64,000 nt of DNA from Phoenix dactylifera. Its lineage: Eukaryota > Streptophyta > Magnoliopsida > Arecales > Arecaceae. Location of the stretch: contig NC_052393.1 in assembly GCF_009389715.1 (NCBI RefSeq), positions 3,472,001-3,536,000 on the forward strand. The letters are read 5' to 3'. The notes below the pieces were generated by a model. That model made no database searches. It saw only the letters and a program-made list of their open reading frames with translations, and was not told where the DNA came from. Of this stretch, positions 9,131-61,466 are shown in pieces (position 1 is the stretch's first letter; each line of letters starts with the position of its first letter). The translations under genes and the position numbers were made by a program.

Positions 9131-9477
9131 AGGCTGCAAATGAGTCGGATTGACCCGTGATCCGACTCGATCCGATCTGATTCAAAGAACCCGTAAGGTC
9201 TGGTCGGATTCTAAAATTAGACATGTTTTATCTTTTGGGCCGGATTTGGGTTTACTAAATTCTAACCGGATTTAGATTTTTTTTGGATTGAGGTCGGGTT
9301 ATAAATAGACTCGATCTGACCCGAATGACCTATTGGGTCATAAATTTTAGCTATGGACTTAACCCGACTCAATCTTCTATTGGTCTAGGTCTAAGTTAAA
9401 CAATAAGACCCAAATAAGAAATCGAGCGGGTCGGAGTCATTCATGACTCGCTCCGATCCGATCTATTTGCACTTCTA
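9131..9477. repeat. MITE-like element with terminal inverted repeats
   Basis: The left end reads GGCTGCAAATGAGTCGGAT. The right end, read on the other strand, gives AAGTGCAAATAGATCGGAT, an imperfect inverted repeat. The interior is full of degenerate GATCCGACTCG-like words. A related, more diverged copy lies at about 17.5-17.9 kb. Non-autonomous DNA transposons with such TGCAAAT...GGGTCGG ends are common in plants; the superfamily is not determined here. Confidence 0.5.
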
Positions 9478-10174
9478 ATCGAAGATGACCCCCATGGCAA
9501 TTTAAGTCCCAACCTCCTCTGCTTCTAGATGGACGGCCTGGGGCCCATGCTTTTCAGTACATTAATCTCAGATCTCTTTGATGGTGGAAAAATATGTGAC
9601 ACCTCCTAAGAATATATTCTAGTGACCCGGCATCTACATTGACATGGTCCCCTCCTGAACATTTTGGCGCATCCCGGAGGTAGCATATATAAAGATAGCC
9701 TGACCAGAGCTTCTAGAAAGCATATATTTTTACTCTTGGGATGTCATGCTCCCTCTGGCATTCTTCCACAAAACCAGGTAACAACTACTCAGCCCATACA
9801 TAAGGATCATTAAGCTAATATTCATGGATATATGCTTTTTTGATACTATACTTGTTCCCTGGTTAGGTCCGAATTCAATGTACCAGAAGCTCTTAACCTT
9901 GTTTAGTATCGAGGGATAGGAATCTGATGACCAAAGCCACATGGAGGTTGGAGTATCGATGTGACCAGATATTAGATTAATGAAGAGGGTGATGCATAGA
10001 GACATTTTACCGAAGGTGGCATAGAACATGGCTTTGGACGTGGAGATACATGATGTCCGAATGATGGCCGGCCTGCATGACAATGTGTGGGCAGCATGGT
10101 TCAGGCTGCAAACCATGCCATATCACGTCATCTTTCTTTCTTTTTTTTTATTATTATTATATATATATACGAGT
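9478..10174. other. Intergenic spacer
   Basis: An open frame of 128 codons lies on the minus strand at 9730-10116. It shows no recognisable domain, and I cannot decide whether it is a decayed element or chance. Confidence 0.35.
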
Positions 10175-10600
10175 TGTAAGAAATGCCACATGTGTTCAGT
10201 TCTATATCAGTTATTCGTCGAGGAGATCTTGAGTACTTATATAGGATGAAGAAACCTAAATAATAACTTCTCATTGGCCATTTTGGATGAGATTCTGTAT
10301 TATTATAAATGGTATCAGAACGAACTCTGCCCATAGCCTATGTAGACTAAAAGACATTGCAACACGGGTTCATGAAGACTGACCACGGGCCGATCATGAT
10401 GCTTGTGATTAGATTTGAACCCTTAGCCTGACGAGAACGTTAGGGTTTTAACAGCGGAAATATGTGAAGAACCGTGTGAGCGTGTGTTTAGTTTCACATC
10501 GGTTATTCGCTGAGAAGATTTTGGGTACTTATATAGGACTAAATCTAAAAAAAATATCTTTCGGCTAGCCATTTTGATCCCACCTTATTTCATGGCTCAA
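10175..10600 (+). mobile_element. TRIM-type mini LTR retrotransposon (non-coding)
   Basis: Two direct repeats of about 130 bp start with TGTAAGAAATG (10175) and TGTGAAGAACC (10463). Both continue through the same order of words: TATCAGTTATTCG / CATCGGTTATTCG, GAGTACTTATATAGGA / GGGTACTTATATAGGA, and GGCCATTTTGG / AGCCATTTTGA. Just after the first repeat, at 10310-10321, is TGGTATCAGAAC, one mismatch from the initiator tRNA-Met primer-binding site TGGTATCAGAGC. The interior is only about 150 bp with no coding capacity. Short LTRs, a Met primer site and a tiny interior define TRIMs. The right end is approximate because the repeats diverge there. Confidence 0.8.
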
Positions 10601-11262
10601 GATTGAAATTATAATTTTATCCAATCCAACCGGTCCACTACTCTATCCTCGTTAGCTCTTCAACCCTATCCGATCTAAAAATTTTACCCATCCAATCCTA
10701 TTCCGAGAAAAGTATAAAGCATATGAGGGTAATAATCTATCCGGTCCGGACATGATCCAAGCCCTCCCCGGTCTGCACTATCGTAGGGAGAACACTAGTT
10801 AGCACACATTCTAAAGCATTTGATTATGACGACAAAACCAACCTTCTAGATGACGAGCATAAAATATATTTTTTTTCTGAAAAAAGTAAAGCACGAAATT
10901 TAAATGCCTTGTGGCCTGCACTGAAGCCATGTGGACCATATCTCTGCACGGATAATAAAACGAATCTTACCTGCCCTTCCGTCTATGACCGGGGCACTTT
11001 TAATCTGTGAGATAATGCAATATATGGGAACTTGACGTCAGGTCCAGAGCTTGTCGCATTGATTTCATTTTTCTGTTGTATGATCCCTTTGATGCGCTAC
11101 ACGTGGTACTCGATTTAATCATACTCATACCCTATGTGGCACCCTGTGAGAGAACCACGTAGCTGTTTTATTTCTCTTGCATTGTATTTTATCATCCGAC
11201 CCACATCCATTTTTTACCGATTTACTAAAAAAAACAAATAAAACCACGAGGTGCCACATGTC

Positions 11263-11654
11263 TTTTTTTTTTTCTTAGAAAAAGGGAAGAAACTAGGGAG
11301 GAGGAAGGAACAAGCCAACCCCCGCGTAGCAGCCCCCACTGGGCCTCCACCCCATCAGAAAAATGTTCGATGCGGGCAGAAATGACCGTGTGTTGGGCAT
11401 CCCGACCGATTTTACTCATATCCTCCCCACCTATAGGATCGGTTCAGCTACCCCTATGGGCTCCGACTCGAGTCCCACGTGTGATTACATTGCACCTGGC
11501 ACCATCCCGGCTACTAGAGGTCAAAAAAGCGTTCTTATGCCTTATGTCCAAACAGTAGCCGAAGCCATATTTTAATCAACGCTGCAGCGACTCGAACTTG
11601 GGACCATGAGGATAGAAATTACGCCCAGTACCATCAGGCTACGACCTTGGTGGC
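11263..11654 (-). mobile_element. tRNA-derived SINE with target-site duplications
   Basis: The minus strand begins with a tRNA-like head. A box-A sequence TAGCCTGATGG and a box-B sequence AAGTTCGAGTCGC are spaced as in an RNA polymerase III internal promoter (within about 11584-11654). A non-coding body follows and ends in an A-tract (T-tract at 11263-11273 on the plus strand). The flanks carry the near-identical direct repeat AGGTGCCAC(AT)GTC at 11249-11262 and 11655-11666. Head, tail and TSD together make the call firm. The body of about 390 bp is long for a plant SINE. Confidence 0.85.
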
Positions 11655-11666
11655 AGGTGCCACGTC

Positions 11667-13690
11667 TTTCATCGATAACATTCAGTATATGAAATGAGCA
11701 AATATTTTTTGTGATATATAATTAGCCCGATAACTGCATTGAAGTTTGGAAGATATTTGAATTGCCAAACTGAAGGAGCAATGGTTGCTAGTCTTTTCGA
11801 ATGCTTGCTAATATTTTTTGCAAGACATAGATATACATGTGATCTAATGAGTTAAAAACCTTCCACTTGTCATGTATAACGAACATAGAGTGTAGTTTTC
11901 ATGGTTTATAGCTACAGTGCAGCTAGCTCTGATGACAGCCTTTAGTTGAGGGAACGCAGATGTATCCTTCGCATGAATCTACCAATGATCACCCATCGCT
12001 CAAATCTCAAAGTACTTCAAACTCCTCTTTCATCCATTCTGCACAGCTCTCAAAGCAATCAGTGGATGATCCAGTGGTAGATTTGCATGAAGAAAGGTGA
12101 AAGAAAAACACTTCTAAAATGAAAGAAAAACAATTTAATATGTGAGATATTGCTACCTTTCTATGTGCAAAGGGCTGGCTTATTGATTAAAATGTCCCTT
12201 AAGAAGAAAAAGAAAAAAAAGCTAAACTTGTTTTCTATTATGGTTTTTCATCATACATGGAATTATTCTTTAATAATACACTTTCATCAAAAAAAAAAGA
12301 GAAAGAAATATTTTTTTCTCATCCATGGTTGGAAACTATGAAACCAGTTACAATTTTTTGCAAATTTATTTTGAAATATAAATAATACAATAAGTGGTGC
12401 ATATGCTTGACTTTGTAGCAGCTATCATGTAACCCGACATACTTTGCCTTGGGAACAGTGAAACCAACTCCTACGCAAGGTTCACAAAATTGAAGGAAAA
12501 GTGAGATTATTTGATGTCAAATAAATGTTTGAAATTTTGATCAAAGTTGAAAAGATCAATGTTGAAAAAAGTGAAGGGATATGATGATTTTCCTCCAAAT
12601 ATCTATGTGGAAAGCCTCACACAAGGATTTTCCATCACATATACTTGTTTTTTCGATATTTATATAGAATCAGTGTACTAATTATAGTACGATCTTACAT
12701 CATACAATATAATGACATATATAATGTGTATGTGTCTTCGATCTATCCCTATTGTATGGGATTAAAATAAAAATTAATGATTATACGACCCAACTTAATT
12801 TGGTATCTACCACTAATTCTGTGTCACTATTTCGAACAATCCCCCATTTCTCGGACATTTTTGAATAAGAACAGCCAAATATAAAATTTAAAATACTAGC
12901 TAGCCAATAGAGGACAAGAAATTCTAAGAAATGGATATTTTTATGCTAAATTTGGAATTCCTAAGCTCTCCAACAACCCAAATATTACCAGTTGGACCAC
13001 TTGCCTCCTTCATTATGCCTTCTTCCAACAACCAGTTCACTCTATACCCCCACAGAGAAAATCACAATCATTCACTCTCTCTCACACCTCCTCCCCTCGC
13101 ATCTATCTCCTGTCGCTTATCCACGTAGCCACCTCAATGCGACGCATTGAACCCCCACTCTCCTTATCAAAGCCCTCTCAATTATGTAGATTGGAACCCC
13201 TCAACAAAGCCATTGACAAATAAAAAAAATATTTCGTACACTAAAAAAATCCCCAAGATATCTAAAATGGAATTTGTCCTCCTCCATTGTTTGGATCCTT
13301 CAACAAAAAACCCCAGCTTATCCTTCATCCTTCTGGCAAGTTTGGATCCTCTCAAGTTGTTGAATAAACTGTACAGTCTACTTGTCCACTAATAAAACCC
13401 CATGAATGTGTCTCGATTCTCTACGGTAAAATAGGTGGTATTTCATAGGATCCACTTGGACAGGCATTGTACTGAAAGGATACGAGCGCTCTGGTTGCGG
13501 CGCCCCGAGCGATTCGTTTCCTACTGCTTACCGTGCCGCAAAGGCTACAATCCTAACTATTCCAACCCCTTCAACTGCTGACTCCGCCAAGCCAAGTTGT
13601 AGCTATCCGCGGATAAAGTTATTCCCTTAACCACACTCGGCATAATTTTTATCATTACTTTCTATGTTGACTCTTAACCACGGTTAACCC
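11667..13690. other. Intergenic spacer upstream of the DnaJ gene
   Basis: This is AT-rich with short random frames. The last 250 bp turn GC-rich and should contain the promoter of the downstream DnaJ gene. Nothing else is recognisable. Confidence 0.5.
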
Positions 13691-46589: not shown

Positions 46590-47336
46590 TGTTGCTGGTG
46601 GTCCAAACCGAGAACGATTGACACGACGGTGTGAACGGGGTTCCGCCTGAGTTGTCTTGGTTGGTGCTGGTTGCGCTCCACCTTCCGCCAAGGAACCTGC
46701 AAACAAGCCTTGCACCACCACCAGGGTGGTGATGGCCCTCCGACGGTCAAGTCAGAGGAGATTGGAGGAGGAGAGATGATAATCACAAGTGGGAGAGAGT
46801 GCTCTGGGAGGTATTGCTTACCCCCCCCCCTTCTCCCCCCAGCCGCATATATGCCTGGCTGGGAGGTCTCTCAGGGGGGTTTGTCGTCGTGGGGCACGAT
46901 AGAATGGCCACTGACATGGCCGTTACGGGGCGTCGTGGAGCAGCGCCGGGTACGGTCATGGCAGGGCGTAGTGGAGCTCCGCTTTGTACGGTCGATACAG
47001 GAGATCGTGGGCAGCATCGGGTACAGCCGTTGCAGGGAGTAGTGGAGCAGGAGGCCGCGGCGTGCCTCTGGAGAATAGCCTGTCGTTATCAAAAGATCTC
47101 CGATTCGGGGTCGGAATGCTGGATCATAGGGCAGCCGACCCGGGGTCGGGCTGCGGAGCCGAGTAGGTCCGACTCGGGGTCGGAGTGCTGGATCATAGGG
47201 CAGCCGACCCGGGGTCGGGCTGCGGAGCCGAGGAGGTCCGACTCGGGGTCGGAGTGCTGGATCATAGGGCAGCTGTAGCTTTCCTGGATACGCGTGCCGA
47301 TCACGTGGGGCATGGCGGCTCAATTCCCCCATAACA
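46590..47336 (-). repeat. 3' LTR (747 bp)
   Basis: It is the second LTR and has only two full units of the 69-bp internal repeat plus a partial one. Otherwise it is almost identical to the 5' LTR. Long open frames across it on both strands come from GC-rich composition and are not genes. Confidence 0.96.
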
Positions 47337-47352
47337 GTAGCCCCCCACTTCC
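47337..47352 (-). other. Polypurine tract before the 3' LTR
   Basis: The minus strand reads GGAAGTGGGGGGCTAC directly before the LTR start TGTTATGGGG, which is the expected place for plus-strand DNA priming. Confidence 0.75.
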
Positions 47353-47602
47353 GAGCCTGGAACCAGAAGGGGAACAGGTGAAGGGAGTGATGTTTCGAGA
47401 TTGCCGCCATCCTTCGGAGAGGCGCGCGCGCTTCAAGCTTCCCGCCTTCTTTATGGCGTATGGCGGTTGCTGCTGACCTGGCAACCTGAGGATTTCGGCG
47501 GACATCCTTCCTTAATGGTGTCGATTCGCCTTTGGGGTGCGAGCGACCCTTCGGCGGCCAGGCGTCTTCTGGCGTCATCGAGGTGTCACTTGCCCTTTCG
47601 CC

Positions 47603-47852
47603 TATTTAATCGGGGGCCCTCCCCCGTCCGTCTTCTTCTTTACGGACATTTTCGAGTTTCTCCTTTGCGCTACCATTGTTGCCGCCGAAACGTTCGCTTG
47701 CTTTTCCTTTGACGCTCTCGGAGCCGTTCTTCCTCCTCTTCAAGTGAGTTTCCCACTCTTCTACTTTGAGCTCTTCATACTTTTTCTTTTTGTACTAGTG
47801 CACCCCAGTCGTTCCGGCCTTTCCCTCCTTCTTGACCCCGTCCTGACCGTAG
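47603..47852 (+). promoter_or_regulatory. TATA-like box and 5'-UTR intron of the antisense gene
   Basis: TATTTAAT at 47603-47610 is followed by a pyrimidine-rich leader. A strong donor GTGAGT at 47744 and an acceptor ending CCGTAG at 47852 bound a probable 109-bp leader intron, 14 bases before the ATG at 47867. TATA box, leader intron and ATG in this order suggest an autonomous plus-strand transcription unit. Confidence 0.55.
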
Positions 47853-47866
47853 ATTGGCCATTAGGG

Positions 47867-50232
47867 ATGGGCGAAGTGGGAGCAGATAGCATCAAGTCAA
47901 AACTGGTCGCCGAGGACTTAGACGGATTTGTGGCTCGGTACCACCTTCCCGAGGCCTGCAATGTCACGCTCCCAGGGCCTGAGGAGAGGATGTCTCATCC
48001 TCCCCGAGGGAAGATCGCCATCAATGAGGGCATCCTCCAAGCCGGGTTCCGCTTTCCCCCTTCAGACCTAGTCTTACAGGTGCTCCGGGGTTTAGGAATG
48101 GCACCGACGCAACTGGTGCCGAACTCGTGGCGTGCTCTGACGGTCTTCCAGGTTCTCTGTCGCTTGCATGCGATTCCCGCCACCTTGAACGTTTTCTGGG
48201 AGCTCTACGGCCTGAGCGGCCACCCCCAGGACAAAGGGTGGTGGTGCTTCGCAGCGCGGCGAGGGTGCGGCCTTGTCAAAGAGGGTCCTACCTCCATTCA
48301 CCACTGGAAGGAGCGCTTCTTTTTCGTTGATGCAGACCCCTCCTGGGAAATCAGGGCAATCTGGGGGACGCCGGTGAAGTCCCCAATTGGCCTGTCGAAG
48401 TTGTCGAGGGAGGAATCCGAGGGCGTCGCCGCCTTGAAGGGGTTGGTCGCCGAGGGCCAGCTTCCCCCGGTGGGCCGCCTCATTTCTGAGGATACCTTGG
48501 TGAACGTCGGTTTGAGCTCGGTCCCCACCGACCGTGAGTCCGCCATCGTTTCTTTAGCTCTTTTCTTCTCTTTCGTTCCTTCTTCCTTTCGGTTTCTCAG
48601 TCCCTGACCATCCCGTCCTTCTTGCAGAGGTCGACGACGTCATGCGGTCGGTGAAGTCGAAGGCTGTTGGTAGGGCGTCCCTGCTGGAAGCAGTCCGGAG
48701 GAGGAAACGAGCTCTTCCGAGCGGGGCCCCACCGGCGAAGAAGTCCCGTAAGGAGATACCTCCGATGCCGACCGACGAGTCCGGGCCCACCGATCAGGGA
48801 GATGTCGTGGGCACCGACCGGCAGCTGACGCTGTATCAGCCCTCCGGTGGTAAGGTTGCCGCTACTCCGGAGGTGCCACCTGAGCCTGCTCAAGACGGAC
48901 GGGTCGGACGTGATCGGTCCCCAACCCGGCCTTCGACTCGGTCGGCTCCTGATGACTCGAGGAGGGACGCGCCGAGGCCCCGGCCGAGCGGGACCCTATC
49001 AATTCCTGGGGCGACCCCCGCCGCGAGCGTGATCAGCCGGACTCTTCCCCAGGCGATGGATAAGGGTAAGGCTGCAGAACCACCATCCAGCTCCGGGGAG
49101 AAATCGGGGTCTGCCTTCACTACCGATGGCGCCCGAAATCTCATCGAAACAGTGTTGCTGGAGAAGGACCGTCGGCGGGTCCGGGAGTTGGATGTCTCTG
49201 ACGTTGGGGCCGCCAGCTGCGTCTGTCTCATGTCGGTGAGTGTTCTTCTGGCCGTCTTTCACCATTTATTGGCTCTGTTGTTCTCCGCCTGACTCCCTTA
49301 TTTTTCCTATTTCTTAGCTCGCCCAGTACATGATCCGTCTGGAGGAGTGCTACAAGGAACAGGCGGGGCTTTTGGCGAAGGCCGAGGACCGGCTGAAAGC
49401 AATGGAAGAGGGAGGCCGGGCTGCGGCAGGCAGGACGACCGGGGACCTCGAGGCGAGGCTCCGGGAGGCCGAAGAGCGGGCACTCGGCTTCGCCGCCCTG
49501 GAGGAGCAACTGTCAGAGGCTCGGGAGCAACTCAAAGCCGCCTCGGGCCTCGAAAGCAGGGTCAAGAAGGCGGAGGAACGGGCTGAAAAACAGTCCCGGA
49601 AGATCGCGGACTATCGAGAGCGGTGGGAGAAGGCCCAGCGGTCTGCCGACAACGCCTGCGACCGAATCCGCTCTTTTGAAGCCAAACTAGGCGAACTGGA
49701 GTCAGCCCTGGAGAAGTCATGCACGGACGTCCAAGAGCTCCGTTCGCGCCTGAAGGAAGCCGAGGCCGCTCGGGTTGCTACCGAGGCGAAGCATAAAGAG
49801 GCTCAGGCTGATCTGCTGAGGGTCTCCTCTGAGGCCGAAGGCCGGATTGTGGCGAAGGTCTTGGAGGCCAAGGCTCAGATTATGGAGCGAGCTGAGGCGG
49901 AGCTGGCCGAGAAGAGGGCGGAAATCGGGCGTCAGGCGGTAGAGGCTTATCGCCAGTCCGCCGAGTTCGCCCATGATATGTCGGAGGCAGTGCGGACCTA
50001 TCGCCAGTCTGACGAGTTTGTCCATGACGCGTCGGACGCGGGGGCCGAAGCCTTCACCTTGGGCTTCGAGGAGGGCCTGGCAAGGGTGTCGGCTAAGTAT
50101 CCCGAAGTTGACCTGAGCGAGATCTCCCTCCTGGACTCCTCTCCGACGCCATCGCCTGCTGGTTCTCCTGCTGCTTCCCTACCTCCCGCGGACGAGCCCG
50201 GCGTTTCCGACTCGGGAGTTCCTCCAAGCTGA
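47867..50232 (+). CDS. Antisense three-exon gene carried by the Tat element (plant-transposon-domain / coiled-coil protein)
   Basis: Three frames join cleanly by GT-AG introns: 47867-48533, 48628-49235 and 49318-50232. They total 2,190 bases, or 729 residues. Exon phases fit at both junctions (donor GTGAGT each time; acceptors CTTGCAG and TTCTTAG). Residues 1 to about 225 have the look of the Pfam 'putative gypsy-type transposon' domain found beside plant retroelements (LDGFVARYHLPEAC, NEGILQAGFRFP, GWWCFAARRGCGLV). The middle is Pro/Ser/Arg-rich with a basic PAKKSRKE nuclear-signal-like motif. The last 300 residues form a long coiled coil (LEARLREAEERALG, LRSRLKEAEAARVA) and a Pro/Ser tail. 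It lies opposite to gag-pol between the 3' LTR and the repeat arrays. Its function is unknown; the absence of stops and intact splice sites suggest it is or recently was expressed. Confidence 0.8.
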
Positions 50233-50400
50233 CCTCTTGTACCTTCCATTGTCTTTTTTATTTTTGTATGTCGGCGTTTTGCCCAATTGTATGGGCCTCG
50301 GCCCTGAAAATTAATGCACGTTGAATATTTCTTCATCTCGCCCTCGTCCTCTTTTTTTTTTAGCTCTTGGTTGCTTCTTGCTGACTTTTGATTCCCGAAG

Positions 50401-51282
50401 TTCTTCCGGCACTAGGCCAGGCATCCGAGGGTTAAACCTCAGGAAACTCTTCCGGCGCTAAGCCAGGCATCCGAGGGTTAGGCCTCAGGAAATTCTTCCG
50501 GCGCTAAGCCAGGCATCCGAGGGTTAGGCCTCAGGAAATTCTTCCGGCGCTAAGCCAGGCATCCGAGGGTTAGGCCTCAGGAAATTCTTCCGGCGCTAAG
50601 CCAGGCATCCGAGGGTTAGGCCTCAGGAAACTCTTCCGGCGCTGAGCCAGGCATCCGAGGGTTAGGCCTCAGGAAACTCTTCCGGCGCTGAGCCAGGCAT
50701 CCGAGGGTTAGGCCTCAGGAAACTCTTCCGGCGCTAGGCCAGGCATCCGAGGGTTAGGCCTCAGGAAACTCTTTCGGCGCTAAGCCAGGCATCCGAGGGT
50801 TAGGCCTCAGGAAATTCTTCCGGCGCTAAGCCAGGCATCCGAGGGTTAGGCCTCAGGAAACTCTTCCGGCGCTAGGCCAGGCATCCGAGGGTTAGGCCTC
50901 AGAAAACTCTTCCGGCGCTAAGCCAGGCATCTGAGGGTTAGGCCTCAGGAAATTCTTCCGGCGCTAAGCCAGGCATCTGAGGGTTAGGCCTCAGGAAACT
51001 CTTCCGGCGCTGAGCCAGGCATCCGAGGGTTAGGCCTCAGGAAGTTCTTCCGGCGCTAAGCCAGGCATCCGAGGGTTAGGCCTCAGGAAACTCTTCCGGC
51101 GCTGAGCCAGGCATCCGAGGGTTAGGCCTCAGGAAATTCTTCCGGCGCTAAGCCAGGCATCCGAGGGTTAGGCCTCAGGAAATTCTTCCGGCGCTAAGCC
51201 AGGCATCCGAGGGTTAGGCCTCAGGAAATTCTTCCGGCGCTAAGCCAGGCATCCGAGGGTTAGGCCTCAGGAAATTCTTCCG
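50401..51282. repeat. 46-bp tandem array, about 19 copies
   Basis: Head-to-tail units read CTTCCGGCGCTAAGCCAGGC then ATCCGAGGGTTAGGCCTCAG then GAAATT. Copies differ by a few substitutions (TAAGCC, TGAGCC, TAGGCC; ATCCG, ATCTG). There are no spacers. The array starts about 60 bp after the likely 3' end of the antisense gene. Confidence 0.97.
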
Positions 51283-52530
51283 CTCGCTGGTCGGCCAAGG
51301 CTGGCGCAAGCCGAAGCGACCGGTCGGGGCTTCCGGCTAGTCTGCTCCCGGGATGATCATCGGGTTAGCCAGGCATCCGAGGCCCGAGCCTCGGGAGATT
51401 CCACTCGTTGGTCGGCCAAGGCTGGCGCAAGCCGAGGCGACCGGTCGGGGCTTCCGGCTAGTCTGCTCCCGGGATGATCATCGGGTTAGCCAGGCATCCG
51501 AGGGCCGAGCCTCGGGAGATTCCACTCGTTGGTCGGCCAAGGCTGGCGCAAGCCGAGGCGACCGGTCGGGGCTTCCGGCTAGTCTGCTCCCGGGATGATC
51601 ATCGGGTTAGCCAGGCATCCGAGGGCCGAGCCTCGGGAGATTCCACTCGTTGGTCGGCCAAGGCTGGCGCAAGCCGAGGCGACCGGTCGGGGCTTCCGGC
51701 TAGTCTGCTCCCGGGATGATCATCGGGTTAGCCAGGCATCCGAGGCCCGAGCCTCGGGAGATTCCACTCGTTGGTCGGCCTAGGCTGGCGCAAGCCGAGG
51801 CGACCGGTCGGGGCTTCCGGCTAGTCTGCTCCCGGGATGATCATCGGGTTAGCCAGGCATCCGAGGGCCGAGCCTCGGGAGATTCCACTCGTTGGTCGGC
51901 CTAGGCTGGCGCAAGCCGAGGCGACCGGTCGGGGCTTCCGGCTAGTCTGCTCCCGGGATGATCATCGGGTTAGCCAGGCATCTGAGGGTTGTCAAGCCTC
52001 AGGAAAATTCCGCTCGTTGGTCGGCCAAGGCTGGCGCAAGCCGAGGCGACCGGTCGGGGCTTCCGGCTAGTCTGCTCCCGGGATGATCATCGGGTTAGCC
52101 AGGCATCTGAGGGTTGTCAAGCCTCAGGGAAATTCCGCTCGTTGGTCGGCCAAGGCTGGCGCAAGCCGAGGCGACCGGTCGGGGCTTCCGGCTAGTCTGC
52201 TCCCGGGATGATCATCGGGTTAGCCAGGCATCTGAGGGTTGTCAAGCCTCAGGGAAATTCCGCTCGTTGGTCGGCCAAGGCTGGCGCAAGCCGAGGCGAC
52301 CGGTCGGGGCTTCCGGCTAGTCTGCTCCCGGGATGATCATCGGGTTAGCCAGGCATCTGAGGGTTGTCAAGCCTCAGGGAAATTCCGCTCGTTGGTCGGC
52401 CAAGGCTGGCGCAAGCCGAGGCGACCGGTCGGGGCTTCCGGCTAGTCTGCTCCCGGGATGATCATCGGGTTAGCCAGGCATCTGAGGGTTGTCAAGCCTC
52501 AGGGAAATTCCACTCGTTGGTCGGCCACTT
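51283..52530. repeat. 121/125-bp tandem array, about ten copies
   Basis: The marker GATGATCATCGGGTTAGCC recurs at 51353, 51474, 51595, 51716, 51837, 51958, 52083, 52208, 52333 and 52458. The step is 121 bp for the first five intervals and 125 bp for the last four. The longer units contain GAGGGTTGTCAAGCCTCAGG where the shorter have GAGGSCCGAGCCTCGGG. Each unit contains a GCCAGGCATCYGAGG core, which is also the core of the adjoining 46-bp array. Confidence 0.97.
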
Positions 52531-52744
52531 GTCGCTCGCCGCCCATCGGGGTTTCTCTGTGCCCAGCCGCGACCGTGTTTCTCCTCTCCTCCAAGCGTTG
52601 CCTGGGGGGAACACGAGAAGGGTATTAAACGCTAATTAATGCGTTACCTGGGAAATCGGATCGCCAGTTGCTGCTGGTGAGGAGTGTTAGTTGAGCGGCC
52701 GCGATACGCGGGTTCTTCGAGGAGGATGCGGCCTGGGCGCGAGC

Positions 52745-52940
52745 GGAGACACGTGGACCTAGGGGTATACGTCACCCGGATCGTCCTGCACAAAGAATGC
52801 GATTTAAGGAGAATGACGCTTAGGAAATCGCGGGGAGATACGCCTCGGGAGCCGGAACGGCTCCGGATTCAGTGCGCCTGCATTTATTGGAGCCACCCGT
52901 ATCGGAACTACCAGGGGGCCGCAGCTTGGCTATAAATACA
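52745..52940 (+). promoter_or_regulatory. Promoter-like segment inside the retrotransposon, antisense to pol
   Basis: Reading rightwards there are a G-box CACGTG (52750-52755), an ACGTCAC word (52769-52775) and, at 52931-52940, TATAAATACA in a GC-rich setting. This spacing is that of a plant core promoter pointing towards the pol stop codon. No expression evidence is available here. Confidence 0.45.
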
Positions 52941-53266
52941 GGTGCAGGTACGATGGAATTTGCCAAGCCGGAGCTGCAGGTTGCCATGGATCGCAGACCT
53001 CCTCCTTGGCATATGACTGAGAGACTCCTGTCGAAGGAAAGGGGAGGCGCTCCCCTTACAACTTCAGCCAACTAGCCGTTTCATCTGGGATCAACAAGGA
53101 GGGTCTCCCCGGCGGAACTCCGCTCTAGGCGTTTCATCCGGGATCACATCTCCCCTCCTTGAAGTTCAGCCTCCCGGTTGAGCTCTGCGCCGGACGCTCA
53201 ATCCGGGACCGCGCCTCCATATACTCTTCCCCCTCGAATTCCTTCTCTTTCCTACCACTAGGGAAG

Positions 53267-53371
53267 ATGGGAATATCCTTTGGAGGCGGCGTTCCCCTGG
53301 GGGCAGCGGGAGCTTCTTCTGCGGCGGCTCCTCCTCTTTTTGGTGAGGTGCTGGATGGCGCCTCCGGTTAG
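53267..53371 (+). CDS. Small open frame (34 aa) in the putative antisense unit B
   Basis: About 330 bp after the TATA-like box an ATG opens a 34-residue Gly/Ala-rich frame (MGISFGGGVPLGAAGASSAA at its start). A shorter frame of 40 codons at 52,953-53,075 begins too close to the TATA word to be certain of inclusion in a transcript. A TTATTGAAATGAAA stretch at about 53,507-53,522 may serve as polyadenylation signal. No family is recognised, and the frame may be fortuitous. Confidence 0.25.
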   Translation: MGISFGGGVPLGAAGASSAAAPPLFGEVLDGASG

Positions 53372-53563
53372 AAGCACCCACTTCTGGTGGGACTGCAGCC
53401 GCCCTGGGTTGAGGGTTTGGGTCCCCACCTCTTCTTTACTTTCTTTACTCCCTAATTCCCCTCTGGGAATTCCTTGTAATCACACGAGCACGCCACTGTA
53501 ACCAGAAATTATTGAAATGAAAAGTATTGCACCTTTTTAAATTGTCTTTCTGGCCTTGTTGTT

Positions 53564-56212
53564 CTACTGGTAATACATCCGCAGGTTAGCGGAATTCCAG
53601 CCCCTTGGAATTTCTCGGCCATCTAGGGCTTCCAACTGGTAGGAGCCAGGTCGGTTTACCCAACGAACTTTATACGGGCCTTCCCAATTTGGCGCTAGCT
53701 TCCCACCTTCCGTAGGTTGAGATGCCTTAGCTCGCCTCAGCACCAGATCTCCAATTCTGAAAAGCTTCGGTCGGACTTTGGAGTTGTAATATCGGGCCAC
53801 CCTCTGCTGATACATTGCCATCCGTACCTGAGCCATTTCCCTTGCCTCTTCCAAGAGATCCAAGTTCCCTCGGAGTTGCTCCGAATTGGCCTCGGGTCGG
53901 TGCGCGGCCACCCGAGGCGAGGGGAGTCCGAGCTCCACGGGGGCAACGGCTTCCGTGCCATAGGTTAGGCTGAAAGGCGTCTCTCCAGTAGGAGTCCGTT
54001 GTGTGGTCCGATACGCCCAAAGGACATTCTCGAGTTCCTCGACCCAAGCTTGCCCCGTCCGGCCGATCCGCGCTTTGATACCTTGGAGGATTGTCCGATT
54101 TGTGACCTCGGCCTCGCCGTTGGTTTGGGGATGCGACACGGATGTGAACCGATGCTCGATCCCAAATTCCTCGCAGAAGTCCCGGAAGTGCTTGTTATCA
54201 AACTGTCGACCGTTATCCGAGATGAGGACCCGAGGTACTCCAAATCGGACAATGATGTTCTGCTTCACGAACTTCCGGACTTGTGCCTCCGTGATGGTGG
54301 CCAGTGGCTCTGCCTCCACCCACTTGGTGAAGTAGTCGATGGCGACAATCAAAAATTTCCGCTGGGCCGAAGCGACGGGGAATGGTCCGAGGATATCCAT
54401 TCCCCATTGTGCGAAGGGCCAGGGCGCGGTGATTGGCGCCAAGGGGACAGAGGGGACTCTCTGGACGTTGGCGTGGCGCTGGCAGGCGTCGCATTTCCGC
54501 ACGTGGTCCTTCGAGTCCTCCATCAAGGTCGGCCAATAGTAGCCTTGCCTCATGATCTTATGCACCAAGGACCTAGCCCCCAAGTGCGATCCGCAGATGC
54601 CTTCGTGGACTTCGCCGAGGGCGTAGGCCGCTTCCGCGGGGCGGAGGCACCTTAAGAGGGGGGCGGTAAACGAGGTCCGATACAGCCTCCCTTCATAAAG
54701 TACGTAGTGGGCGGACTTCTTTACAAGCCGCCGGGCCTGATCTTCGTCTTCAGGGAGGATTCCTTCGGCGAGGTAGGCGACGAGCGGGTCCATCCAAGAC
54801 GGCTCCGGATCAATTGCCATCACCGCTCCAGCCCCGTCAATGCTCGGGGCATCCAGGGTCTCCAGGTAGATTGCCCTCAACAAGTTGTGCGCGTCTGCGT
54901 CCACTAGGCGGGACAACCTGTCGGCCCTGGCATTTTCGCTCCTCGGGACCTGCTGAATGTCAACACTGCCGAGGTCGGGAATGAGTGTTTGCACCTTCCG
55001 GACGTAGCTCTGCATGGTCGGGCTCCGCGCCTCGAACTCCCCTCGAACCTGCCCGACCACCAGCTGGGAGTCGGTGAAGACTTTCAGACGCCGGATGCCG
55101 AGCTCCTTGGCGAGTTTGAGTCCCGCGACTAGGGCCTCGTACTCCGCCTCATTGTTGGTCACTGGAAATCCGAACCTCAAGGCATACTCGGCTATCACTC
55201 CATCGGGATTGGTGAGGACCAGCCCAGCCCCTCCACCTTCAGGGTTCGACGACCCGTCAATGTGGAGCGTCCAGATCGGGAGATCGAGGCTGGGTGTCTC
55301 CGGCGGCTTAGGTTCCGCCTCCTGCACAGTGCACTCAGCGAGAAAGTCCGCGAGTACCTGGGCCTTGATGGCTGGTCGGGGCTGGTAGCGGATGTCGAAC
55401 TCACCAAGTTCTACTGCCCACTTCACCAGCCGTCCCGCATTCTCTGGATTGCTGAGAATCTGCCGCAGTGGTTGATCGGTCAAAAGGGTGACAGAATGAG
55501 CCTGGAAATAGGGGCGAAGCCTCCTGGTCGCAGTCAGCAGCGCGAAGGCGATCTTCTCAGCCTTCGTGTACCGCGTCTCGGCATCCCGGAGGACTCGGCT
55601 GATGTAGTATACAGGCTTCTGAAGTCTTGCCTCTTCCCGAACCAGTACTGCGCTGACTGCGGTTGGGGAGACCGCCAGGTAAAGGTAGAGCATCTCCCCC
55701 TCTTGCGGCTTGGACAGCAGGGGAGGAGACGCCATGTACTCCTTGAGCTGGTCGAACGCCGCATGGCATTCGGCCGTCCAGAGGAAGTCTTTTGGGCGCT
55801 TCAACACCTTGAAGAATGGTTGGCAGCGTTCGGCCGACTTTGCCACAAATCGTCCGAGCGCGGCGACCCTTCCAGCGAGCTCCTGAACCTCCTTCACTTT
55901 GGTCGGAGGGGACATATCTTGGATGGCTTTGATCTTGTCCGGGTTGGCCTCGATCCCGCGCTGGTTGACAATGAAACCGAGGAACCTCCCGGCCGAAGCA
56001 CCAAAAGCGCACTTCGCTGGGTTTAGCTTCATGCGAAACTTTCGCAAGGTGGTGAAAGTCTCCTCCAGATCTGCAATGTGCTGGTCTGCATGGCGGCTTT
56101 TTACCAGCATATCGTCCACGTACACCTCCATATTCCGGCCGATCTGCTCCTTGAAGATTTTATTGACGAGGCGCTGGTAAGTGGCGCCAGCGTTCTTCAG
56201 ACCGAAGGGCAT
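53564..56212 (-). pseudogene. pol continuation: RT core, RNase H, second RNase H, integrase (cut off from gag by a frame change)
   Basis: This open frame of 882 residues is uninterrupted. It holds the RT catalytic YVDDMLV near residue 34 and an RT-linked RNase H near 185-260, with an eroded start (YLYLAVSP) and YTKAEKIAFAL. A second, archaeal-type RNase H sits at about 315-440 (LHIDGSSNPEGGGAG, NNEAEYEALVAGL, FTDSQLVV). The integrase zinc region is near 536-579 (CDACQRH), and its catalytic residues lie in WGMDILGPF (about 604), SDNGRQFD (about 667) and NGEAEV (about 700). The C-terminal WEGPYKVRWVNRPGSY is the usual integrase tail. The first Met is internal to RT and not a natural start. The frame is lost at 56,251-56,260. 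Confidence 0.93.
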
Positions 56213-59030
56213 TACCTTGTAACAGTACAGCCCCCGGTCTGTTATGAAGGCAGTTCTCCTCGTCCTGTGGAGCCATCATTATTTGGTTGTAGCCGGAGAA
56301 GGCGTCCATAAAAGACAGTAGCTGATATCCGGAAGTCGCGTCGACCAGTTGGTCTATCCGTGGAAGCGGAAAGCTATCCTTGGGGCACGCCTTGTTCAGG
56401 TCGGTGTAGTCGACGCACATCCTCCACTTCCCGCTCGCCTTCCGGACAAGTACGACGTTTGCCAGCCACTCGGGGTAGCTCACCTCTCTTATGAAACCTG
56501 CCTCCAAGAGTTTGTCTACCTCCTGGTCGACCACCCGGATCCGATCCGGGGCACAGTGTCTCTTCTTTTGCTTTACCGGTCGGTGGGTCGGGTCGACGTT
56601 GAGGGCGTGAGAAACGACCTCCGGGTCGATCCCAGGTACATCGGCCGCCGACCAGGCAAACACATCTGCATTGGCTCGGAGGAATTCCACTAACCGGAGC
56701 CGAGCTTCCAAGTCGAGATTGGCACCGACCCGGACCGTGCGGTCCGGGCGGCCTTCTTCGAGGGGAACTTCGATTACGCCCTCGGCCGGCTCCCCGTGCC
56801 GCAAGGCCACTTCGTCTCTGGCGTCAAGTGACTCGACGCTTAGGGCCTCCATGGGCTTCTTCCCTTTGAGAGTTGCTAGGAAACACTGCCGTGCGGTCGG
56901 CTGGTCACCTCGGACCTCTCCAATCCCGGCCGCTGTGGGGAACCGCATGAGCAAATGGTAGGTAGAAACCACCGTGCGAAGGGCGTTCAGTCCGGGTCGT
57001 CCGAGGATAGCGTTGTAGGCCGAGGGGACACGGACGACCAAGAACCCGAGCCGCACCGTGGCTTCTGCGGGTGCAATGCCCGCAGTCACAGGCAGCTCGA
57101 TGACACCTTCGGCCGAGATAGCGTCTCCAGTGAATCCTATGAGGGGGGTGGATGTTTTGTGCAACAATTGTCGGGAAAAGCCCATCTTTTGGAAGGCCTC
57201 GTAATACAAAATATCAGCTGAGCTTCCACTATCCACAAGAACACGCCTTACATCATAGTCCGCCATAGTGAGAGAGATCACCATGGCGTCATCGTGGGGA
57301 GTCTGAACCCCCTTTACATCTTCATCACAAAAAGTGATTACATTTCCGACCCGCTGCCTCTTCGCGACGGCCACTCCTGATACTTCCGCCGAGCCCCCTG
57401 CGTTCCTCACGGGCCGAGAGCAGCCCCCAGTGATGGTGTGGATCACTCCCGCGACGGGTCGATTCTGCTCCCGAGGCTCCTGAGGGGCCGGGTCGGCTGG
57501 ACGCGGGTCTGCGGGGGGACGTCGGTCGTTTACATATCGACCGAGACGTCCTCGGCGAATGAGAGCCTCGATCTCGTCCCGAAGCTGGAAGCAGTCTTCG
57601 GTATCGTGGCCGTGGTCTCGGTGGTACTCACAGTACGCCCGAGAAGGCTTCCTCCCAGGGATCTTCTTCATCTGCCTCGGAACCGGGAGGTCCTCCCGCC
57701 CCTTGACCTCCATGAGGATCTGGGCCCGGGGGGCCAGGAGTGGGGTGTACCGGTTGAAGCGCCGGTGCGGAGAACGAGGGCGTGTGGCGCCGTGGTTCCT
57801 TGCTGGTGACGGGCTTCTGCGCCGGCGTTGAGGCGTCGGGCTCCTCCTCTGGGGTGCCTCTTTTCGCCTTTTCTTCCCGGGCTTTAGAGGGGCTTCGGCG
57901 GCCTCCTTGTTCCGGTGGGAGGCTGCCTCCTCGGCGTCTGCATACTGGTTTGCCCGAGACAACAGCTCCGGGAAGCTCCGCGGCAGACGTTTGTCCAGGG
58001 AGAAGGTGAGTCTGCCCTTCCGGAAGCCTCGCTTCAGGGCTGAGAGAGCCACCTCCTGGCTCAAATTCCGGACCTCCAGTGTTGCCTTGTTGAAGCGGGT
58101 GAGATAATCCCGCAGGCTCTCTCCCTCGTTCTGCCGGACATCGAAGAGGGAGTCGGAGACCAGTCTTCGCCGGCTACTGACGGCGAAATGGCTGATGAAG
58201 AGACGGGTGAACTGGTGGAAGGACTGGATGGAATTAGCCTCCAGGCCGGCGAACCACGCCCTTGCCGGGCCGCGGAGGGTCGCCGGGAAGGCCTTGCAGA
58301 GGAGAGGATCCGATGCTCCATGGAGGAGCATAAGAGTCCTGAAACTCTCCACGTGGTCCCGTGGGTCCGCCGCCCCGTCGTAGGGTTCGATCGCCGGCAT
58401 TTTGAACCCCGGCGGGTTTAGGGTTCGCAGGATCCTTGAGGCAAGCGCCGGCTGGGAGGAGATTTCCAAGTCGGCGAAGGGATCTTTGGAGTGGCCCTTC
58501 AGGACCTGGAGCTGTCTGTGGAGATCGTCCACCCGCCGGTCCAGGGAGCGCGACCGGTGGGTGGGAGACAAGGAGCGGCGCGAGGGGGACCGACTGGAGT
58601 GCGGGCCCCTCGAGGACTGGGGTGTCTGAGAACGCGCCCGGGTCCGCCTCTCGTACCCCGCGCAGCTCCGATGAGAAGGTCCTGGCAGAATGGACCGCAC
58701 TCGAGAATCCTCCCCGCGCCGGCGCTCCTCTCCATGGGAGAGGAAGGAGCGCGGGTTGTGAGGAAGAGGCGAGTGCTCGGGGAGCAGCGGCTCCTGAGCC
58801 CGCTGCGGCACCCGAGAGATCACACCCTGCAGATTCTGCACTGCCTCCGCGAGGGTGCGAACCTGCTGGGCTAGCTGGTCGAACTGAGCAGGTTCGACCG
58901 TCTGAATGGGAGGAGAAGCGGTGGAATGCTGCTGAGAGTGTGTTGGGGACGCAGCAGCCTCCCGGCCAGAGGCGCGAGAGGCTCCGCGACCGGAAGCATT
59001 GGAAGCTCCGCGACCACCTCGCCGTGCCAT
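56160..59030 (-). CDS. gag-protease-RT (N-terminal part) of the Tat element
   Basis: The likely start is the ATG at 59,030 (MARRGGRG). The frame stays open upstream into the LTR but without a better start. The gag core is at about residues 185-400 (AWFAGLEANSI, FISHFAVSSRR, GESLRDYLTRFN). A Cys/His knuckle CEYHRDHGHDTEDC is near 470. The protease has its active site in LVDSGSSADILYY near 600. RT begins near 835 with GFIREVSYPEWLANVVLV and reaches MDAFSGYNQIMMAP. Within the next dozen codons (about 56,251-56,260) the reading frame changes, and the last 30 or so residues are out of phase until the stop at 56,160. The intact pol continuation lies in the other frame and overlaps by 53 bases. Confidence 0.93.
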   Translation of the reverse strand: MARRGGRGASNASGRGASRASGREAAASPTHSQQHSTASPPIQTVEPAQFDQLAQQVRTLAEAVQNLQGVISRVPQRAQEPLLPEHSPLPHNPRSFLSHGEERRRGEDSRVRSILPGPSHRSCAGYERRTRARSQTPQSSRGPHSSRSPSRRSLSPTHRSRSLDRRVDDLHRQLQVLKGHSKDPFADLEISSQPALASRILRTLNPPGFKMPAIEPYDGAADPRDHVESFRTLMLLHGASDPLLCKAFPATLRGPARAWFAGLEANSIQSFHQFTRLFISHFAVSSRRRLVSDSLFDVRQNEGESLRDYLTRFNKATLEVRNLSQEVALSALKRGFRKGRLTFSLDKRLPRSFPELLSRANQYADAEEAASHRNKEAAEAPLKPGKKRRKEAPQRRSPTPQRRRRSPSPARNHGATRPRSPHRRFNRYTPLLAPRAQILMEVKGREDLPVPRQMKKIPGRKPSRAYCEYHRDHGHDTEDCFQLRDEIEALIRRGRLGRYVNDRRPPADPRPADPAPQEPREQNRPVAGVIHTITGGCSRPVRNAGGSAEVSGVAVAKRQRVGNVITFCDEDVKGVQTPHDDAMVISLTMADYDVRRVLVDSGSSADILYYEAFQKMGFSRQLLHKTSTPLIGFTGDAISAEGVIELPVTAGIAPAEATVRLGFLVVRVPSAYNAILGRPGLNALRTVVSTYHLLMRFPTAAGIGEVRGDQPTARQCFLATLKGKKPMEALSVESLDARDEVALRHGEPAEGVIEVPLEEGRPDRTVRVGANLDLEARLRLVEFLRANADVFAWSAADVPGIDPEVVSHALNVDPTHRPVKQKKRHCAPDRIRVVDQEVDKLLEAGFIREVSYPEWLANVVLVRKASGKWRMCVDYTDLNKACPKDSFPLPRIDQLVDATSGYQLLSFMDAFSGYNQIMMAPQDEENCLHNRPGAVLLQGNALRSEERWRHLPAPRQ

Positions 59031-59052
59031 TACGATCGTTCTGAGATTCGTC

Positions 59053-59069
59053 CCTTCCTCTAGCGCCAA
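59053..59069 (-). other. Primer-binding site
   Basis: Two bases after the 5' LTR the minus strand reads TGGCGCTAGAGGAAGGG. TGG pairs with the universal CCA end of a tRNA. I did not assign the tRNA. Confidence 0.75.
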
Positions 59070-59070
59070 C

Positions 59071-59886
59071 TGTTGCTGGTGGTCCAAACCGAGAATGATT
59101 GACACGACGGTGTGAACGGGGTTCCGCCTGAGTTGTCTTGGTTGGTGCTGGTTGCGCTCCACCTTCCGCCAAGGAACCTGCAAACAAGCCTTGCACCACC
59201 ACCAGGGTGGTGATGGCCCTCCGACGGTCAAGTCAGAGGAGATTGGAGGAGGAGAGATGATAATCACAAGTGGGAGAGAGTGCTCTGGGAGGTATTGCTT
59301 ACCCCCCCCCCTTCTTCCCCCAGCCGCATATATGCCTGGCTGGGAGGTCTCTCAGGGGGGTTTGTCGTCGTGGGGCACGATAGAATGGCCACTGACATGG
59401 CCGTTACGGGGCGTCGTGGAGCAGCGCCGGGTACGGTCATGGCAGGGCGTAGTGGAGCTCCGCTTTGTACGGTCGATACAGGAGATCGTGGGCAGCATCG
59501 GGTACAGCCGTTGCAGGGAGTAGTGGAGCAGGAGGCCGCGGCGTGCCTCTGGAGAATAGCCTGTCGTTATCAAAAGATCTCCGATTCGGGGTCGGAATGC
59601 TGGATCATAGGGCAGCCGACCCGGGGTCGGGCTGCGGAGCCGAGTAGGTCCGACTCGGGGTCGGAGTGCTGGATCATAGGGCAGCCGACCCGGGGTCGGG
59701 CTGCGGAGCCGAGGAGGTCCGACTCGGGGTCGGAGTGCTGGATCATAGGGCAGCCGACCCGGGGTCGGGCTGCGGAGCCGAGGAGGTCCGACTCGGGGTC
59801 GGAGTGCTGGATCATAGGGCAGCTGTAGCTTTCCTGGATACGCGTGCCGATCACGTGGGGCATGGCGGCTCAATTCCCCCATAACA
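59071..59886 (-). repeat. 5' LTR (816 bp)
   Basis: This is the LTR next to gag. It contains three full and one partial copies of a 69-bp GC-rich unit (59,586-59,823) built around GACTCGGGGTCGGAGTGCTG. A CATATATG word near 59,327 may be part of the promoter. It differs from the other LTR by one extra 69-bp unit and two substitutions (near 59,095 and in the C-rich run near 59,316). Confidence 0.96.
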
Positions 59887-60828: not shown

Positions 60829-60920
60829 CGACAGGCGCGCGACGCCCCACTTAGAGAGAAAATATCGTTGCTTCTTTTCTTTCTTCTCTCTCTTAGGGTT
60901 AGGGTTGTGGGGGTGGGGAA

Positions 60921-61466
60921 ATGGCGCAGGGGAGCGAGCGGATGAAGGGGACGGTGAAGTGGTTCAACGGAACCAAGGGGTTTGGCTTCATCACGCCGGA
61001 TGACGGCGGGGAAGACTTATTTGTGCATCAAACGTCGATCAAAGCCGACGGCTACCGGACCCTGACCGAGGGCGAGCATGTCGAGTTCACGGTCGCCGAG
61101 GGTGACGACGGCCGTACCAAGGCCGTCGATGTGACTGGCCCTGAGGGAGGATCCGTCCAGGGTGGCGGCGGTGGAGGAGGCCGCAGGGACGGGTACGGCG
61201 GAGGCGGGGGGAGAGGCGGCGGGGGCCGCGCCGGAGGAGGTTTCGGCGGCAGGTACGGAGGCAGGAGTGGAGGGGTAAGGGGCTACGGCGGCGGAGGGGG
61301 GCTCTGTTACAACTGCGGCGAGGCTGGACACCTCGCAAGGGACTGCTACCAGGGCGGTGGGGGCAGCGGGAGGTACGGCGGCGGCGGCGGCGGAGGCGGC
61401 GGCGGCGGAGGCTCCTGCTACAACTGTGGGGAAGCTGGGCATTTCGCAAGGGAGTGCCCGAAGTGA
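60921..61466 (+). CDS. Cold-shock-domain glycine-rich zinc-knuckle protein (CSP/GRP2 type)
   Basis: This intronless gene encodes 181 residues. The cold-shock domain (about 8-74) has RNP1 KGFGFI at 19-24 and RNP2 LFVH at 33-36, which stack on single-stranded nucleic acid. A Gly/Arg-rich linker follows, then a CCHC knuckle [14 protein letters not shown] (129-142), more Gly, and a second knuckle [14 protein letters not shown] (166-179) two residues before the end. Plant CSPs of this layout are RNA chaperones that melt RNA structure; they act in cold response and in flower and seed development, in nucleus and cytoplasm. The two-knuckle form matches the AtCSP2/AtCSP4 and rice CSP class. A TATA box and telo-like leader word lie upstream. 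The stop is TGA at 61464-61466. Confidence 0.95.

Follow-up and report, generated by a model that had tools for sequence, protein, structure and literature searches.

Introduction

Several plant long terminal repeat (LTR) retrotransposons, namely Grande of maize, RIRE2 of rice and Retand of Silene, carry antisense open reading frames (ORFs) between pol and the 3′ LTR (PMC7264820). For gene23 of maize Grande (Gomez-Orte et al. 2013), the same article tells of a promoter of its own and of a nuclear product. Neumann et al. (2019; PMC6317226) reported Transposase_28 in 23% of Retand elements, with the extra ORFs in 3′ reverse orientation, and Vicient (2025; PMC11963269), in a survey of 617 plant assemblies, described antisense ORFs with this domain (TRP28, PF04195) as characteristic of Retand elements, being found in 97% of clusters. 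Here we describe a gene of this kind in a 64,000-nucleotide stretch of the Phoenix dactylifera genome (NC_052393.1, positions 3,472,001 to 3,536,000 of the forward strand; hereafter the window), where the coding sequence (CDS) appears to be divided among three exons inside a Ty3/gypsy LTR element of the Tat/Retand type.

The 2025 survey, which was made with ORF Finder, also records other antisense domains of the coiled-coil type, Smc among them; it predicts DNA binding by TRP28 and reports tandem arrays in about half of Retand elements (PMC11963269). The role of the antisense genes is left as a question in both PMC7264820 and PMC11963269, and the former asks that spliced antisense transcripts be examined.

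The gene model and its conservation in divergent families

The gene lies on the plus strand of the window. Coding exon 1 (47867..48533, 667 nt), which carries the TRP28 domain, is followed by intron 1 (48534..48627, 94 nt; donor GTGAGT, acceptor CAG), coding exon 2 with a basic stretch and a low-complexity linker (48628..49235, 608 nt), intron 2 (49236..49317, 82 nt; donor GTGAGT, acceptor TAG) and coding exon 3 (49318..50232, 915 nt including the stop), which encodes a predicted long helix and a conserved C-terminal motif. Given the lengths of the exons, the introns are in phases 1 and 0, respectively. As an earlier note on this DNA had claimed, the three exons join in phase into 729 codons, and the only stop is the terminal one. 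Open frames of this length are improbable from base composition, since of 5000 mononucleotide shuffles per exon only 4 (exon 1), 16 (exon 2) and none (exon 3) left the frame open. The T content is 44% and 46% in the two introns and 21, 17 and 16% in the exons.

The earlier note had also described a TATA-like box, a probable intron in the 5′ untranslated region (UTR) and a course antisense to gag-pol. The box, TATTTAA, is present 264 nt 5′ of the ATG (47603..47609, plus strand), and most relatives have one alike (see below). The candidate 5′-UTR intron (47744..47852, plus strand) has a good GTGAGT donor at 47744 and a TAG acceptor chosen by eye, but no matching donor was found among the relatives scanned, and it therefore stays unconfirmed. 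As for the course of the gene, it does run antisense to gag-pol, but without the overlap: the pol ORF ends at 53564, and the gene occupies part of the stretch from there to the 3′ LTR, converging on pol.

A search for PF04195 in the same genome gave 3465 first-look candidates, of which 150 were scored and all 150 lie above the cut-off; the domain was found in none of 14 control genomes. Viral contigs held 57 stretches that match the search pattern, none of them encoding a relative. The 30 best-scoring PF04195 loci, all from the same genome, were taken for comparison. The window protein matches all 30, and in 28 of them (the exceptions being L012 and L023) the match ends at residue 212-220, exon 1 itself ending at residue 222. 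Exon 1 identity to the window is 32-39% in an alignment of 13 members. At the place homologous to the donor of intron 1, GT is present in 24 of the 30 loci (phase 1, counted from the start, in 20 of these 24) and AT in two, while the pattern found no site in four. The first acceptor is AG in 24 of 26 relatives, the second donor is GTAA or GTGA in 20 of 22, and the second acceptor, counted from aligned rows, is CAG in 21 of 22. The exon 2 query matches 27 loci and the exon 3 query 26, and the two exons follow in order where found. Finally, a TATA box stands 235-290 nt 5′ of the ATG in 26 of the 30 loci, against 0.16 expected. Taken together, these comparisons between genomic copies lend strong support to the three-exon splicing model.

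Around 110 nt before the ATG, five of the six relatives inspected (from L009-L038) have, as read by eye, a stretch like AGTAGGTCGTTCTCCCAC, and the window has CAAGTGAGTTTCCCAC. Such stretches may have a regulatory role or belong to a leader intron.

In 6-kb stretches taken from the TRP28 domain on, pol runs antisense to TRP28 in four of six relatives, with 62-69% identity in the main pieces and 41% in one piece; no pol match was found within 6 kb in the other two. The distance from the end of the tandem array to the end of pol is 161-262 nt in those four relatives and ~1 kb in the window.

Selection on the three exons and copies of the gene in the genome

The ratio of nonsynonymous to synonymous change (dN/dS) between families was calculated by NG86 and is given as bin medians. 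For exon 1 (17 loci and the window) it is 0.279, 0.191 and 0.138 at dS 0.1-0.3, 0.3-0.6 and 0.6-1.2, respectively, and 0.248 above dS 1.2, where dS is saturated. Exon 2 (12 of 27 loci) gives 0.41, 0.30 and 0.28, and the start of exon 3 (12 of 26 loci) 0.20, 0.17 and 0.13, at dS 0.15-0.3, 0.3-0.6 and 0.6-1.2. These ratios support the view that all three exons are under purifying selection.

Young copies of the window's own family were collected by searching the same genome at the DNA level, and the best 40 of 1797 first-look candidates, the window included, were scored. The whole CDS is present in 38 of the 40, and both donors and both acceptors are kept in all 40. Among the variants common to at least two copies, 17 fall in the CDS, 6 of them nonsynonymous and 11 synonymous; the context-matched expectation is 10.7 nonsynonymous, 0.3 stops and 6.0 synonymous, which gives a ratio of ~0.30 (p = 0.013). 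Variants seen in a single copy number 75, with 42 nonsynonymous, 2 stops and 31 synonymous (expected 47.7, 2.5 and 24.8). This pattern is what would be expected if selection acts on lineages while they are active and copies drift neutrally once inserted. One copy, L068, has 70 differences, compared with 8-21 in other copies of the family, and its CDS is still open. In a protein search with exon 3, one locus has an internal stop among the best 130 of 3534 candidates as ranked by score.

The gene multiplies with the element. The junction of exon 1 with intron 1 occurs at 562 places in the genome at no more than 3 mismatches (280 forward and 282 reverse; control 0), and at the same stringency neither spliced junction occurs at any place. 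Processed genomic copies, considered as a proof of splicing, were thus not found; their absence agrees with an mRNA that is not the RNA that is reverse-transcribed, and is no direct proof of splicing.

Protein features

The Transposase_28 domain occupies residues 55-116 (48029..48214, plus strand), with E = 1.2e-10 and 41.9 bits against a Pfam cut-off of 26.2; with exon 1 alone as the query, E = 1.9e-11. A predicted candidate role of this part is DNA binding. Exon 2 matches no Pfam family. Its basic stretch (residues 246-264; 48696..48752, plus strand), read by eye, is nuclear-signal-like, and PKPRKKAK-like stretches are present at the equivalent place in exon 2 of relatives. For exon 3, no Pfam family scores above the cut-off and only weak coiled-coil families appear; single-sequence AlphaFold2 predicts one long helix over exon residues 41-234, with a mean predicted local distance difference test score (pLDDT) of 79.3. 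The earlier note had read a gypsy-associated N-terminal domain, a nuclear-signal-like stretch and a long coil in this protein. The Pfam search bears out the first, and the reading by eye and the structure prediction are in keeping with the other two.

Near its C-terminus the protein has a 42-residue motif in common with the divergent families (residues 654-695; 50002..50127, plus strand). The motif was first noticed in the exon 3 alignment and tested afterwards. It scores 37.0 in the window, where the next best place scores 1.2, and this score was reached by none of 5000 residue shuffles (maximum 29.0) and by none of 5000 heptad-keeping shuffles (maximum 31.75).

The host LTR element

The host is a whole Ty3/gypsy LTR element on the minus strand (46590..59886), recognized by its LTRs, its target site duplication, a primer-binding-site side and a polypurine-tract side, and its gag and pol domains. 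It spans 13.3 kb and is flanked on both sides by the 5-bp target duplication GTTAC. Alignment of one LTR to the other places the 3′ LTR (747 bp) at 46590..47336 and the 5′ LTR (816 bp) at 59071..59886, with 2 mismatches in 747 aligned columns and 69 gap columns. The gap is matched in size by one unit of a 69-bp tandem repeat inside the LTRs, which is present in 2.5 copies in the 3′ LTR (47099-47273) and 3.5 copies in the 5′ LTR (59580-59823). Since potentially recently active elements (PRARE) are defined by identical LTRs together with identical target duplications (PMC11963269), the element falls outside that class: its duplications are identical, and its LTRs are 2 mismatches and one 69-bp unit apart.

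Two minus-strand ORFs encode gag and pol. The first, of 1063 amino acids from stop to stop (56160..59351), contains Retrotrans_gag together with the N-terminal portion of the reverse transcriptase (RT); the second, of 903 amino acids (53564..56275), holds the C-terminal part of RT, RT_RNaseH (196-293), RVT_3, a second RNase H-like domain (340-456), and the integrase (from 553 on). In the window copy, the RT core is thus divided over two frames that overlap at 56160-56275, profile positions 1-90 of RT falling in the one and 94-205 in the other.

Placement of the element in the Tat lineage, in which the earlier note says that antisense ORFs are known, is upheld by this second RNase H between RNase H and integrase, provided that RVT_3 is read as equal to the aRH that lies at this place in Ogre and Retand (PMC6317226). 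Two further features agree with Retand, namely the antisense TRP28 ORF between pol and the 3′ LTR, and the sizes of the LTRs (747 and 816 bp), the internal region (11734 bp) and the region from pol to the 3′ LTR (6228 bp), which lie within the Retand ranges of 315-1194, 7380-12869 and 2933-6566 bp, respectively (PMC11963269). By domain order, the element fits the Tat/Retand type. The Ogre lineage was also considered, but the plant mobile domain PF10536, present in the extra ORF of 57% of Ogre elements, was not found, and PF04195 stands alone in 13 of 13 exon-1 proteins.

A stretch of 6.2 kb separates pol from the 3′ LTR and contains the plus-strand gene and tandem arrays, the latter consisting of a 46-bp unit repeated 19.3 times and then a 121-bp unit repeated 10.4 times (50397..52527). 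The arrays separate the 3′ end of the antisense gene from that of pol, the two being convergent, and could insulate or terminate the two converging transcripts. Just beyond the 5′ LTR, a plus-strand frame (60903-61466) has a translation that by eye resembles a plant cold-shock glycine-rich protein with zinc knuckles, and is probably a host gene neighboring the insertion.

Discussion

We consider it likely that the window holds an accessory antisense gene of a young Tat/Retand element, which is transcribed from a TATA promoter, loses two introns by splicing, and yields a 729-residue nuclear protein that acts on the DNA or the transcription of the element. The integrated element would thus carry, on the opposite strand and in the stretch from pol to the 3′ LTR, a second RNA polymerase II gene with a TATA promoter of its own. 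Its primary transcript would lose two short U-rich introns and be translated into a protein of three parts: TRP28 from exon 1, a basic linker that resembles a nuclear-import signal from exon 2, and a helix with a conserved tail from exon 3. This product would go back to the nucleus, self-associate by its helix and act on the element's DNA or transcription, with TRP28 as the candidate DNA-binding part. We infer, then, transcription, splicing in the cell, nuclear localization, DNA binding and a regulatory role. The introns could outlast retrotransposition because the RNA that is reverse-transcribed is the other strand, in which they read CT...AC and would stay unspliced.

Several points weigh against this reading. 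The case for splicing rests on the comparison of DNA, and the 30 loci compared form 6 groups (>80% identity over >1 kb), so that they are not 30 independent witnesses. Both sets of copies were ranked by score or similarity, which favors intact copies and biases intactness upward. Loci that were broken, short or without an ATG were left out of the dN/dS analysis (exon 1, 13 of 30; exon 2, 15 of 27; exon 3, 14 of 26), which lowers the values somewhat, and the lowest-dS bins are high, at 0.645 (exon 1, one pair below 0.1) and 0.63 (start of exon 3, three pairs below 0.15). The earlier note had named a dN/dS near 1 among copies as one of the signs that would speak against the gene. The shared variants are not near 1, whereas the single-copy variants are close to neutral, at ~0.70 of expectation (p = 0.07). 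With regard to the protein, the AlphaFold2 model of exon 1 has a mean pLDDT of 42.1, too poor for use, and the best hit among solved structures has E = 0.65, which is no match. Finally, a profile of the whole of exon 3 from the relatives gives the window only 1.2 bits, a score that residue shuffles exceed (up to 10.7) and that heptad shuffles equal or exceed in 7 of 1000 cases. Homology by the whole-exon-3 profile was therefore dropped. Only the tail motif stands out, and it is chiefly by this motif that the last exons of the window family are linked to those of the other families.

The alternative that survives best concerns the stage at which the protein acts. Instead of controlling transcription, it might serve in the cytoplasm or during import, in the particle, in the pre-integration complex or in the choice of the integration site. 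PMC7264820 raises a role with the pre-integration complex, and a basic stretch and a long helix would be as suitable for a tether as for a regulator. Nothing in our data speaks specifically against this reading or separates it from the preferred one; we hold it to be somewhat unlikely. A second alternative gives the function to the antisense RNA itself, which would pair with the genomic RNA and feed small-RNA silencing or dampen transposition, the protein being of minor importance. Such a role for antisense transcripts is discussed in PMC7264820, and the gene does converge on pol with the arrays between them. However, an RNA has no need of amino-acid constraint in three exons, of kept phases or of a conserved protein tail, which makes this an improbable account. 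It is very unlikely that the gene is a decaying relic whose frames are open merely because the copies are young: the 2 mismatches in 747 LTR columns and the near-neutral singletons would suit such a relic, but low dN/dS and conserved splice sites extend across old and divergent families. Least credible of all is that the element has captured a piece of a host gene, or a gene since domesticated, that serves the plant, because, for all its promoter-like box and its introns as in a plant gene, the gene multiplies with the element (the 562 places), its domain extends across many families of the genome (the 150 candidates scored), and PMC11963269 reports no TRP28 similarity outside transposable elements. 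Where the earlier note had suggested a protein acting for the element or its host, action for the element fits the pattern of selection better, and action for the host finds no support. An accessory gene of the element, as set out above, thus remains our preferred reading.

Antisense genes of the TRP28 kind have already been published; we did not find, in the literature searched, a conserved gene of three exons in which TRP28 and a helical C-terminal part are united. Nor did we find an account of conserved introns in these genes, most subscription papers lying outside the search and the 2013 paper on Grande being one that may describe introns. In the main text of PMC11963269, the words 'intron' and 'splicing' are absent and 'spliced' occurs in one reference title only, and the available portion of PMC6317226 does not treat the splicing of antisense ORFs. 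The three-exon model, in which splice sites, phases and the TATA box are conserved, provides the full-length protein to express and the junctions to seek in RNA reads. Surveys based on ORFs may break one protein into pieces, and the conserved splicing pattern merits a closer look in other plants.

When set beside the Retand elements of PMC11963269, the window is alike in the position of the gene between pol and the 3′ LTR, in its antisense orientation, in PF04195, in the adjoining arrays and in region sizes that are in or near the published ranges. The array units differ in part, being 46 and 121 bp in the window against 8-100 bp in the survey. Another difference lies in the coding sequence: the ORFs are separate in the survey, and the extra ORFs of Neumann et al. 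(PMC6317226) each consist of one frame, 250 codons or longer, whereas in the window a single gene model of three exons covers both TRP28 and the helical part. Like gene23 of Grande, for which a promoter of its own and a nuclear protein are described, the window gene would be an antisense accessory gene with its own promoter and a nuclear product. HBZ and APH-2 of human T-cell leukemia viruses (HTLV) are likewise encoded by antisense genes near the 3′ LTR and are nuclear regulators, an analogy in role only that is drawn in PMC11963269. We regard it as an even call whether the antisense TRP28 and coiled-coil (Smc-like) ORFs catalogued in Retand elements are in general exons of one ancient spliced gene. 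Such a gene would have its own TATA promoter and encode a nuclear protein of TRP28, linker and coil; its introns would mark the antisense mRNA apart from the genomic RNA, and in role it would be the counterpart of the retroviral antisense regulators.

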